Source: a virus
Strand: one strand, 5' to 3'
DNA length: 43,808 bases
Virus record (IMG/VR): IMGVR_UViG_3300027659_000068
Span: 1 to 43,808 of that record
Part shown: positions 13,075 to 31,971 of the stretch, piece after piece
Numbering within the stretch: the first letter of the stretch is position 1
Layout of the letters: every line of letters begins with the position of its first letter
Position numbers and translations under genes: made by a program
Notes under the pieces: generated by a model
Databases searched by the model: none
The model's input: the letters and a program-made list of their open reading frames with translations, nothing else
Told to the model about the DNA's origin: nothing

Positions 13075-14259
13075 TTAGTCTTTATACGGGTCATAGACAT
13101 CGGCTCCTGCCATAGCAACGCCTAATGGAGTTAACTGATGCAAGACTTGTATAGTGTCTCCTTGAGCGGCCAATACCTCGGTAAGGCGCTTATAAGCGTG
13201 AGGACTTTCGTCGCATCCTCCTCCACGTAACTCAACACATGCCTCGGTTAACCATTCGTCCATCATACTTTGCGAAACTTTACCTCCGCTGATGCGGACT
13301 TTTTGGCCACCTTTCCACTTAGATTTACCGGCAGCCTCAGTGCGTGACATCACTCGACCGGCGCCGTGTACGGTCGAATAGAGTGAATCACGTGATAGGT
13401 CGCTTTGCATGCCTTTTAAGATGACACTATTTTCGCCCATGGTACCACCGACAAATCCACGTTGGTCTGGCCAAGCAGGAGTCGCCCCTTTACGAACGAC
13501 CCACAAGTCAACGCCATCATGTTGTTCTTGCCAAGCATAGTTGTGATGGTTATGAACTTCGTCGATTATGTTTCCACCAAGGATACGAGCAACCTCAGAG
13601 CATACCCAATCGCGACCGGCATAGGCATAATCTCCGGCAAGTTGCATTGCAGCGATATATTCACTGCCAAGATCAGTATTTACGTCAAGCAACACTGGAT
13701 CCACAAGGATTCCGTCAGTCCCACCACCAGCCTTGATGTAATGCGAGGCAATTTTGTGGCCAAGACCGCGTGATCCGAAGTGAACCCCGATCCATACTCG
13801 CTCTGCCTCGTCAACGAAGATGTCGACATAATGGTTACCGCTTCCTACGGTACCAAGTTGCGATCGAGCCATATCTTTAAGAGGCGACAACATCTCAATG
13901 TCATCCCACTCTGAAGCATCAAAAAGGGAATGATCGACCTTAGTCTTGTTGACGCGACCTACACCAAACGAGATATTGGCAACAACCTCATCCATGATGC
14001 GTGAGATATCACCCTTCACGTCCGATAAGGTAGCATCAGTGAGCACGGCCTTGTTGCCGCATGAAATATCGAACCCGACTGCGCTTGGTGAAATATATCC
14101 CTCATACGCAACGACTCCACCGACAGGTACCGAGTAACCTAGGTGATGATCTGCCATTAAGGCAGCTTTGTGGGCTCCTTTACGAAGGCAATTATCCATT
14201 TGATCCACTGCGTTCTGAAGAGGATCGCCAAAAACGGCTATGTCATTTATGATTTTCAT
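13075..14259 (-). CDS. rtcB: RtcB-type RNA ligase
   Basis: Nearly the whole RtcB fold in 394 residues: VGFDISCGNKAV (Asp64, Cys67 metal ligands), GVHFGSRGLGH (His160), DEVHNHHN (His236 region) and TVHGAGRVMSR with His298, the site of GMP attachment in the family. RtcB joins 2',3'-cyclic phosphate ends to 5'-OH ends, so it could repair tRNAs cut by host defences, fitting this tRNA-rich phage. The start at MKIINDIAVFG (14259) fits the family; a longer reading runs into the upstream 44-aa gene. Confidence 0.93.
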   Translation of the reverse strand: MKIINDIAVFGDPLQNAVDQMDNCLRKGAHKAALMADHHLGYSVPVGGVVAYEGYISPSAVGFDISCGNKAVLTDATLSDVKGDISRIMDEVVANISFGVGRVNKTKVDHSLFDASEWDDIEMLSPLKDMARSQLGTVGSGNHYVDIFVDEAERVWIGVHFGSRGLGHKIASHYIKAGGGTDGILVDPVLLDVNTDLGSEYIAAMQLAGDYAYAGRDWVCSEVARILGGNIIDEVHNHHNYAWQEQHDGVDLWVVRKGATPAWPDQRGFVGGTMGENSVILKGMQSDLSRDSLYSTVHGAGRVMSRTEAAGKSKWKGGQKVRISGGKVSQSMMDEWLTEACVELRGGGCDESPHAYKRLTEVLAAQGDTIQVLHQLTPLGVAMAGADVYDPYKD

Positions 14260-14263
14260 AGTA

Positions 14264-14398
14264 TTATCGGCAGGCTTTCTTAGCAGCTTCTTTTTTGCGG
14301 TCTTTAAAATAGACAGTAGCGGGGGCACACTTGTGGCGAGTTAACGCACGAAGTGCTATTGGGCTGTAATCAAAGGTAACTGTCTTATTCTTTTTCAT
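14264..14398 (-). CDS. small basic protein, 44 aa
   Basis: Begins MKKNKTVTFDYSPIALRALT and ends in a Lys/Arg-rich helix. Unrecognised. It fills the space between two operon genes with 4-nt spacing to rtcB. Confidence 0.55.
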   Translation of the reverse strand: MKKNKTVTFDYSPIALRALTRHKCAPATVYFKDRKKEAAKKACR

Positions 14399-24317: not shown

Positions 24318-24622
24318 TGGTGGACACGAGGGGAGTCGAACCCCTGTCCTATACGTGTTTCTATAGATCTTCAAACATGCTTATAGTTTCTCAAGTTGCA
24401 TGCTAGACAGAGCATGCGCTGTTTTGGGTTGCCTGATTTGTACTCGGAGTAGAGCAGGCATGTCTCCGAGCGTGTTTAGATTAGGCCGCTAGAGCGAGTC
24501 CAGAATCTACGACGTTGTTTTTGCCGTTTAGTTTTTTGAAAGGCTTTTAAAGAGGCCAACCTTATCATTCCTCTGCATGCTAATCCATAGAGCACTCGTA
24601 AAGTCGAAACCAGAGCGTGCCC
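24318..24622 (-). ncRNA. ssrA: tmRNA (transfer-messenger RNA)
   Basis: 305 nt. The 5' end GGGCACGCTCTGGTTTCGAC and the 3' end GGGGTTCGACTCCCCTCGTG...TCCACCA are diagnostic of one-piece tmRNA. Acceptor stem GGGCACG/CGTGTCC keeps the G3-U70 pair used by alanyl-tRNA synthetase. Helix P2 pairs CTATGGAT with ATCTATAG. The mRNA-like part reads GGC AAA AAC ... GCC TAA, giving tag GKNNVVDSGLALAA, ending in ALAA as recognised by ClpXP-type proteases. It would rescue stalled ribosomes with SmpB. Its first base is the last base of the exostosin stop codon, so it is probably cut from that transcript. CCA is encoded. Confidence 0.95.
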
Positions 24623-30979: not shown

Positions 30980-30990
30980 ATTCTTTATTT
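30898..30990. repeat. 93-bp direct repeat, copy 2
   Basis: Second copy of the leader-coding repeat; includes the complete late promoter TATAAATA, which copy 1 has lost (it reads ATTTTTTAAA there). Confidence 0.9.
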
Positions 30991-30993
30991 ATA
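30986..30993 (-). promoter_or_regulatory. late promoter TATAAATA
   Basis: Perfect match 6 nt upstream of the 96-aa leader gene. Confidence 0.78.
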
Positions 30994-31402
30994 AGAAAAT
31001 TTTGTCAGGCTCGCTTGAAATAAGAGCTGGAGTATATAAGTTATTGTCGCTAGCAACGGTAAACCAACTTCCCTTTTCATCATTATCAATTTGTGCAATA
31101 CCATATTCAGCCAAGTCTTCACCAACTGCAACCTTTACGCTATACCACTTTTGCACGCCAAGCGTAGCCAATTTGCCGCTGTTTCCTACATTTTTATAGG
31201 GGCTAACTTTATACAAGAGATCATCATCAGGAAAGTATATATAACCATCTTTAATGATTTTCGTTTTGACTGCTTGTTCAGTTAAAGAAACTTCTTCAAG
31301 AGAAGCAGATTCAAGAACAATAGTTTGTGCTGCAATCGCCTCGTCATAAGAGTCTTGAGCCATTTTGCGGTATGCGGTAGTAATGTTGCTACGAGTATTC
31401 AT
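30989..31402 (-). CDS. leader-bearing late protein, 137 aa
   Basis: MNTRSNITTAYRKMAQDSYD with LEE at 35-37 and LTE at 40-42: a divergent member of the leader family. The C-terminal ~90 residues (YIYFPDDDLLYKVSPYKNV...) form a beta-rich domain of unknown function. Preceded by a perfect late promoter. Confidence 0.7.
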   Translation of the reverse strand: MNTRSNITTAYRKMAQDSYDEAIAAQTIVLESASLEEVSLTEQAVKTKIIKDGYIYFPDDDLLYKVSPYKNVGNSGKLATLGVQKWYSVKVAVGEDLAEYGIAQIDNDEKGSWFTVASDNNLYTPALISSEPDKIFL

Positions 31403-31411
31403 ATTATATCT

Positions 31412-31419
31412 TATTTATA
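31412..31419 (-). promoter_or_regulatory. late promoter TATAAATA
   Basis: Perfect match 9 nt upstream of the 137-aa gene; it also marks the 3' border of the ncRNA region. Confidence 0.78.
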
Positions 31420-31429
31420 TAAACTAAAA

Positions 31430-31890
31430 TCTCAAGCGCATTGAAAGTGATTTAACGGGTGTTGTTATTACACCAAAGGAGTTATGATTGTCTAGCGTCC
31501 TAGAGTCTCATCCTATGAAACGCAATTCACGAGTATCGCAGTACCTTTGCAACAGTGTAATGAGAGAATTCACCCACATTTCTTCTTGCGAGGATGTATG
31601 TCTTGGTTGAATTGTATACATACGAATTACCTCTTCTTCACATCTAGTTCCACTTCTTACATGATGGCTACTTCTAAGCCAACATACCCGTTAAATATTT
31701 GTCCATAGAGTATGCACTCTCAATGCGTTATGCAGGACTGGCACTAGCTATATGAATCCTTATAGCTGGAGAAGGAAGCCCGTAACCTTCATATGGCTTT
31801 TTGGTATCTACAATGTATGGATATTGACCCACACGGAATTTCAAGCCTTTATCCACTACGCATGTGGTAACTCACCGATTTCCATTGCAA
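31430..31890 (-). ncRNA. large structured ncRNA with 23S rRNA helix-43-like hairpin
   Basis: No credible gene in 460 nt. The minus strand at 31685-31661 reads ATGTTGGCTTAGAAG-T-AGCCATCAT, matching 24 of 25 bases of the 23S rRNA L11/thiostrepton hairpin (E. coli nt ~1055-1080, from memory). A GGTAAT at 31631-31626 follows as in the neighbouring helix-44 loop. A weaker match (GAAATTCC-GTGTGGG, 31842-31828) resembles 23S helix 71. Clear hairpins include AGCTATA/TATAGCT, AGAGT-GCAT-ACTCT and GGTGT/ACACC near the 3' end. It may belong to a large phage RNA class such as GOLLD, often found beside tRNAs; not established here. Probably transcribed from 33596. Confidence 0.6.
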
Positions 31891-31896
31891 AATTTA

Positions 31897-31971
31897 TGGT
31901 GCGGGATGTGGGAGTCAAACTGACCTCACAAGTTTGGAAAACTCATATATTAACCGATATACGAATCCCGC
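31897..31971 (-). tRNA. tRNA-Gly (UCC), weakened T-stem
   Basis: Acceptor GCGGGAT/ATCCCGC pairs fully; loop TTTCCAA carries UCC; CCA encoded. The T-stem GTCAG/CCCAC has two mismatches, so stability is questionable. Confidence 0.82.

Follow-up and report, generated by a model that had tools for sequence, protein, structure and literature searches.

What could a hairpin of the large ribosomal RNA be doing in a phage genome, outside any gene? The stretch of DNA analysed here (the window, 43,808 nucleotides) is a fragment of a T4-like phage with genes for a phage DNA helicase, ribonucleotide reductase, T4-type RNase H, RtcB and lysozyme, besides tRNA genes and a tmRNA. On its minus strand lies the sequence ATGTTGGCTTAGAAGTAGCCATCAT, which a preliminary description had taken for 23S rRNA helix 43, altered at a single base out of 25. 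Comparison with Salmonella 23S rRNA confirms this: over positions 1057-1081 (E. coli numbering) the sole difference is at 1072 (C to U), and the loop keeps A1067, as claimed. Helix 43 belongs to the L11-binding region or GTPase-associated centre (GAC), from which a 58-nt fragment of 23S rRNA (1051-1108) folds by itself and tightly binds uL11 through the C-terminal domain of this protein; thiostrepton and factors contact the GAC at A1067, and the conserved helix 42 is used by uL10. The resemblance was recovered without prior choice of a target, since a BLASTN search of 31400-31900 against all 50,697 phage records returned 23S rRNA regions as matches. The minus strand is indeed gene-free here: no minus-strand ORF of at least 60 amino acids exists in the region, and the single ORF touching 31430-31890 runs on the opposite strand into a tRNA gene.

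The resemblance in the window is not limited to one hairpin. The RNA, which we term GAC-mimic RNA, comprises the whole GAC (1055-1104), i.e. a helix 42 foot and helices 43 and 44, and its ends are joined by a perfect 10-bp closing helix that is kept in constrained and free folds alike (Table 1). Two points of the preliminary description had to be revised on this basis. A GGTAAT 30 nt after the hairpin had been likened to the helix 44 loop, but the true helix 44 (GU-GUAAUA-AC, 31473-31464) follows about 180 nt further on, within an exact pattern match that spans 31477-31458 (-). The extent of the RNA had been given as 31430-31890, but the part from 31885 to 31705 falls outside the closing helix and is a separate RNA or tRNA-like sequence.

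Table 1. Parts of the GAC-mimic RNA in the window, with E. coli 23S rRNA numbering in brackets
Feature	Position	Strand	Remarks
GAC-mimic RNA, ~247 nt	31450..31696	-	closing helix AUUUAACGGG/CCCGUUAAAU; direct sequence
Closing helix, 5' strand (helix-42-like foot, ending at the G1055 equivalent)	31687..31696	-	pairs with 31459-31450
Helix 43 equivalent (1057-1081)	31661..31685	-	A1067 equivalent retained, C1072 to U
Junction and helix 44 5' strand (1082-1090)	31652..31660	-	GUAAGAAGU; diverged at 1082, 1086, 1087
174-nt insert between U1090 and G1091	31478..31651	-	short closing stem GGA/UCC
Linker UUUG, insert to helix 44	31474..31477	-	conserved; no counterpart in 23S
Helix 44 equivalent (1091-1101)	31463..31473	-	G-U-GUAAUA-A-C-A; alignment
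Closing helix, 3' strand	31450..31459	-	direct sequence, folds

The window copy is diverged, with 11-13 differences from 23S rRNA over 50 positions. U1060 and A1088 are retained and a compensated U1092-A1099 stands in place of C1092-G1099, but the pair 1082-1086 is a G.G, position 1087 is an A, and there is one extra nucleotide near 1102. As this copy is among the more diverged ones, it might itself have an altered function. It nevertheless shares the architecture described below, namely a stemmed insert with UUUG at 1090/1091 and a closing helix (~9 bp in the family), and covariation of the insert stem is found in its relatives. The plain minimum-free-energy z-score of the region (-1.0) is uninformative, and comparative evidence was used in its place.

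The BLASTN search also matched an unannotated stretch of the complete Aeromonas phage 4_4572 (75091-75127), and this match led to the family. A general form of helix 43, GGNTGGCTTAGAAGCAGCCANCNT, was found in 29 IMG/VR contigs; the exact hairpin of the window had no match in IMG/VR, and this variant is rare. After the hairpin, most copies run on as ..UUUAAAGAGU and then diverge completely, until the family converges on UUUGGCGUARYAGCACAC roughly 80-395 nt downstream of the hairpin. An independent scan with this 3' block gave at least 120 contigs, and in 101 of the 111 new loci a helix-43-like hairpin (at most 4 mismatches) lies within 1200 nt upstream; several of the remaining ten stop at the contig edge or are detected by a covariance model. 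Altogether, at least 100 viral contigs share this design, and isolated phages have it too, including unannotated gaps of the complete genomes of Pseudomonas phages pf16, UNO-G1W1, Astolliot and Milchi, Cronobacter GAP32, Pectobacterium CBB, Serratia BF and related Erwinia jumbo phages, Xanthomonas XacN1 and Aeromonas 4_4572. In UNO-G1W1 the RNA gene (PP551948.2, 70501-70608) is annotated as a hypothetical protein on the opposite strand, which is probably spurious. A 20-base form of the 3' block occurs only 14 times in 85,000 bacterial and archaeal genomes. Three of these occurrences (L147, L148, L151) have no helix 43 and were rejected as probable chance matches. Another is a CRISPR spacer of Thiothrix fructosivorans (L149:5941-5972), in which the first 22 bases are identical to the 3' block plus the start of the closing helix (22/22 to L062); by its sequence, this spacer provides evidence that phages with GAC-mimic RNA infect Thiothrix. 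Further variation was observed in a sub-class (L119, L039, L082, L101, L115, L117) with an additional hairpin inserted around 1078/1079 of helix 43.

How close is this family to the ribosomal domain? When the insert is removed, the core aligns to E. coli 1055-1104 without gaps. The phage consensus consists of GGAGGTTGGCTTAGAAGCAGCCATCCTTTAAAGAGT and GCGTAACAGCACAC, which meet at the insertion point between U1090 and G1091, and its Paenibacillus 23S counterpart is GGATGTTGGCTTAGAAGCAGCCATCATTTAAAGAGTGCGTAATAGCTCAC; 46 of the 50 positions are identical (49 of 50 in the best single member), and two of the four changes form one compensated pair. What is inserted there is a domain on a stem, 51-365 nt long with a median of 138, and UUUG follows it. 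In 49 divergent copies, with the window copy left out, 93.5% of the cells are paired, compared with 67.5% after shuffling, compensatory cells number 331 versus 104, and double changes occur in 18 of 24 pairs. The covariation score is 0.651 versus 0.10-0.18 for slid-structure controls (0.184 or less throughout the controls), and RNAalifold recovers nearly the same helices unaided. GAC-diagnostic pairs vary as pairs (1055-1104 as GC/AU, 1057-1081, 1058-1080 as GC/UA/AU/CG, and 1082-1086 as UA/CG/AU), and the counterpart closing helix (~8-9 bp) covaries as well. Among the features of the GAC fold, the following are present: helix 43 with its loop 1065-1073, helix 44 with the GUAAUA loop and the pairs 1091-1100 and 1092-1099, and family-wide the 1082-1086 pair and U1060/A1088. 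Positions 1060, 1095 and 1098 do not vary in the family, nor does 1088 within the gap-free class, and we take all four to be GAC tertiary-contact nucleotides; in the aligned class, 1083-1085 and 1087-1090 are constrained by the filter used. The helix 44 loop is partly constrained by the search pattern in copies found via the 3' block, but in those found via the 5' block, positions 1093-1095, 1098, 1099 and 1101 are likewise invariant (22/22). The A1067 equivalent varies, with 76 A, 9 G, 3 C and 1 U among the 89 copies found without using that block.

The relationship also holds in the reverse direction. A covariance model trained on the 49 phage copies only recovers the true 23S GAC of Salmonella (L033; 49.6 bits, E 8.6e-10) and Paenibacillus (L003; 52 bits, E 2.2e-10), in both cases over the full model. 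As the model does not cross long inserts, the window halves were scored separately and no single match spans the window insert; the 5' half scores 31.2 bits (E 7.3e-6), and no other match in the window comes close. The match to 23S rRNA is not due to chance, because a model built without the window detects it and because the two blocks recur in the same order, with covarying helices, in more than 100 phages. A covariance search that revealed another fold, with a hairpin free to vary among related phages, would have spoken against the preliminary description; instead, the hairpin and the nucleotides of the three-dimensional fold are the most conserved ones, and it is the 23S secondary structure that covaries. 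The idea of a phage non-coding RNA with an L11-binding hairpin is supported more strongly than originally stated, as the family has the whole GAC, in which the foot of helix 42 is joined by both helices 43 and 44 and by the 1082-1086 pair. Descent of the family from the uL11-binding region of 23S rRNA is the best explanation, and to the reading as a whole, according to which these RNAs would bind host uL11 via a genuine GAC fold and probably act as decoy or recruiter, we assign a probability of about 0.6.

GAC-mimic RNA is non-coding, because insert lengths are spread evenly modulo 3 (44/41/39) and 119 of 126 copies have stops in all sense frames; only 7 of the 126 have a stop-free sense frame. 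It has defined ends, as pairing in the closing helix, about 0.8 up to the eighth pair, then drops to a background level near 0.4. In 55 of the 104 copies with enough flanking sequence a tRNA lies within 500 nt on the same strand, and in no copy on the opposite strand (0/104); a same-strand tRNA is met at 36% of random positions in the same loci. The immediate neighbours are more informative: in 23 copies the RNA starts -3 to 8 nt past the 3' end of a tRNA, and 23 copies end at most 15 nt ahead of the next one, from which we infer that the closing helix sits where tRNA maturation would leave the RNA end.

With a structure that is near certain, which function may be inferred? At the RNA level the anatomy is established: a short closing helix takes the place of helix 42, and helices 43 and 44 are kept as in 23S rRNA, together with the 1082-1086 pair. 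The RNA would share its transcripts with the phage tRNAs and be freed from them by the enzymes of tRNA processing. It is quite likely that such an RNA adopts the GAC fold and binds uL11 of the host, since an isolated piece of 23S rRNA of this size is known to do both. A uL11-binding RNA would also be the simplest reading of the sequences, since the requirements of the fold are kept, helix 42 is lost, and a change at 1067 is tolerated. The insertion in the 5' strand of helix 44 could disturb uL11 binding. Once bound, uL11 might be titrated or redirected, or the same might happen to factors like RelA that have their docking site on the GAC-uL11 surface, and the outcome would be an altered translation control in infection, for instance of the uL11-dependent stringent response. 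RelA activation by starved ribosomes requires uL11 (PMC7058999). This titration or redirection step is tentative, and we consider it somewhat more likely to be wrong than right. The broader proposition, that a trans-acting copy of a ribosomal centre captures uL11 in many phage lineages and reprogrammes host translation or the stringent response, has close to an even chance, and perhaps the capture extends to the stalk or to RelA-type factors. The insert may add a second activity or anchor the RNA.

What alternatives exist to this reading? uL11 could be a structural chaperone or anchor, with the RNA recruiting uL11 (or ribosomes) into a phage RNP whose activity resides in the variable insert; this would be recruitment rather than a depletion of the host. 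For other large non-coding RNAs, association with ribosomal proteins or ribosomes has been suggested by an RpsU-like pocket in OLE and by ribosomes in GOLLD pull-downs (PMC12286853), and the inserts are large and lineage-specific, with a second conserved module beside the core in about a quarter of the copies, but some inserts have just 51-60 nt, and we regard this possibility as unlikely, if the most serious of the alternatives. The module, CACCCCGNAAAYGGUAAGG, was observed in 31 of 126 inserts (e.g. L013, L161, L096), 10-12 nt before the UUUG linker; it is strongly conserved, but as another 23S mimic it is not supported, since nhmmer against 23S rRNA gave only E 0.08. Distinctly less probable is a decoy for agents that attack or modify the GAC, such as a thiopeptide, a 23S methyltransferase or a ribosome-directed host defence protein. 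The near-23S sequence kept in the loops of helices 43 and 44 would fit such a role, but the A1067 equivalent is changed in about 15% of the copies, which makes a strict decoy less plausible where a drug or factor contacts A1067 (and has no bearing on uL11 binding), and we know of no phage-defence nuclease aimed at the GAC. Ribosomal-protein autoregulation works by rRNA mimicry (PMC10931766), and in the window an ORF begins 47 nt downstream of the RNA, so that a cis-acting leader regulating the downstream gene could be envisaged; however, unrelated genes or tRNAs follow in different phages, the terminal helix is closed and of defined length, and no ribosomal-protein gene was seen in the phage neighbourhoods examined, including the window, where the neighbour at 30989-31402 has no Pfam or PHROG match, which makes this very improbable. 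That a decaying piece of host 23S rDNA was picked up by chance, or that the assemblies are contaminated, can practically be dismissed: true 23S contamination does exist among phage records (Paenibacillus Pd_22F, L003), but apart from L003 the fetched loci hold no 23S sequence beyond 30-37 nt, loci L004-L032 lack any other 23S sequence and hence are not part of a complete 23S gene, and the identical architecture recurs in more than 100 contigs and complete phage genomes with massive covariation.

In comparison with known systems, GAC-mimic RNA shares with the 23S GAC (helices 42-44, 1051-1108) a gap-free 50-nt core and the identical set of helices, but it is free-standing and phage-encoded, has a terminal helix in place of helix 42, a large insert plus UUUG between 1090 and 1091, and an A instead of U1101. 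With GOLLD and ROOL, large phage or prophage non-coding RNAs of tRNA arrays, it has in common this location and a function that is not known (PMC12286853), but it is shorter and its core is an rRNA domain. The suggestion that the hairpin is used within a larger RNA such as GOLLD did not hold: in scans with Rfam (copy of Sept 2026), run at the gathering as well as at permissive thresholds, neither GOLLD, ROOL nor any other known non-coding RNA family matched, the only signal being sub-threshold LSU matches at the GAC. Such LSU matches in GAP32 (7.5e-5) and pf16 (4.6e-4) are far below the gathering scores, which would be the reason why annotation pipelines miss this RNA. The T4 stable RNAs rnaC and rnaD are similar as discrete small RNAs without known function in a phage tRNA cluster; as family members they were rejected, since inspection by eye showed no GAC motif and the covariance model did not match them. 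Leaders of ribosomal-protein mRNAs (L1, L10) likewise mimic rRNA, presumably for ribosomal-protein binding, but GAC-mimic RNA is trans-encoded by phages and detached from any ribosomal-protein operon.

A description of GAC-mimic RNA was not found in the open-licence PMC literature, and a prior description elsewhere is possible. A phage RNA that reproduces a ribosomal functional centre is, to our knowledge, of a new kind, and its presence in many large bacterial viruses, usually among tRNA genes, suggests a widespread, apparently undescribed viral route to engaging the host translation machinery. If this is true, GAC-mimic RNA would be the first viral RNA known to imitate a domain of the ribosome. 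Mimicry of rRNA has so far been known as a cis trick of ribosomal-protein mRNAs, and a trans-encoded viral copy of the GAC would be a new viral way to act on translation. The roles of uL11, the GAC and the stringent response in infection would be open to direct tests, more than 100 GAC variants with insertions represent a natural library for a classic RNA-protein complex, and uL11 becomes a concrete candidate partner for the unexplained large phage RNAs of tRNA arrays.

Several minor observations concern the surroundings of the RNA. An RtcB-type RNA ligase is encoded at 13075-14328 (-) of the same tRNA-rich phage, and a 2'-5' RNA ligase gene lies directly upstream of the GAC-mimic RNA of XacN1. 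In the window, the stretches 32380-32090 and 31885-31705 (-), located between tRNAs, are structured and tRNA-like, with T-arm-like pieces lacking recognisable D or anticodon arms. A tRNA-like gene at 32079-31981 (-) has about 45 bases between D and T arms, where the consensus has 17, and what may be a GCA anticodon loop. Besides a normal tmRNA (24318-24622), the fragment contains a “mini-tmRNA” at 32262-32194 (-), adjoined by tRNAs, in which the tRNA-like domain of tmRNA (G3-U70, CCA, tmRNA-type T arm) is present and a short hairpin replaces the whole mRNA and pseudoknot domain; this layout recurs in at least seven IMG/VR contigs (L168 and L170-L175).
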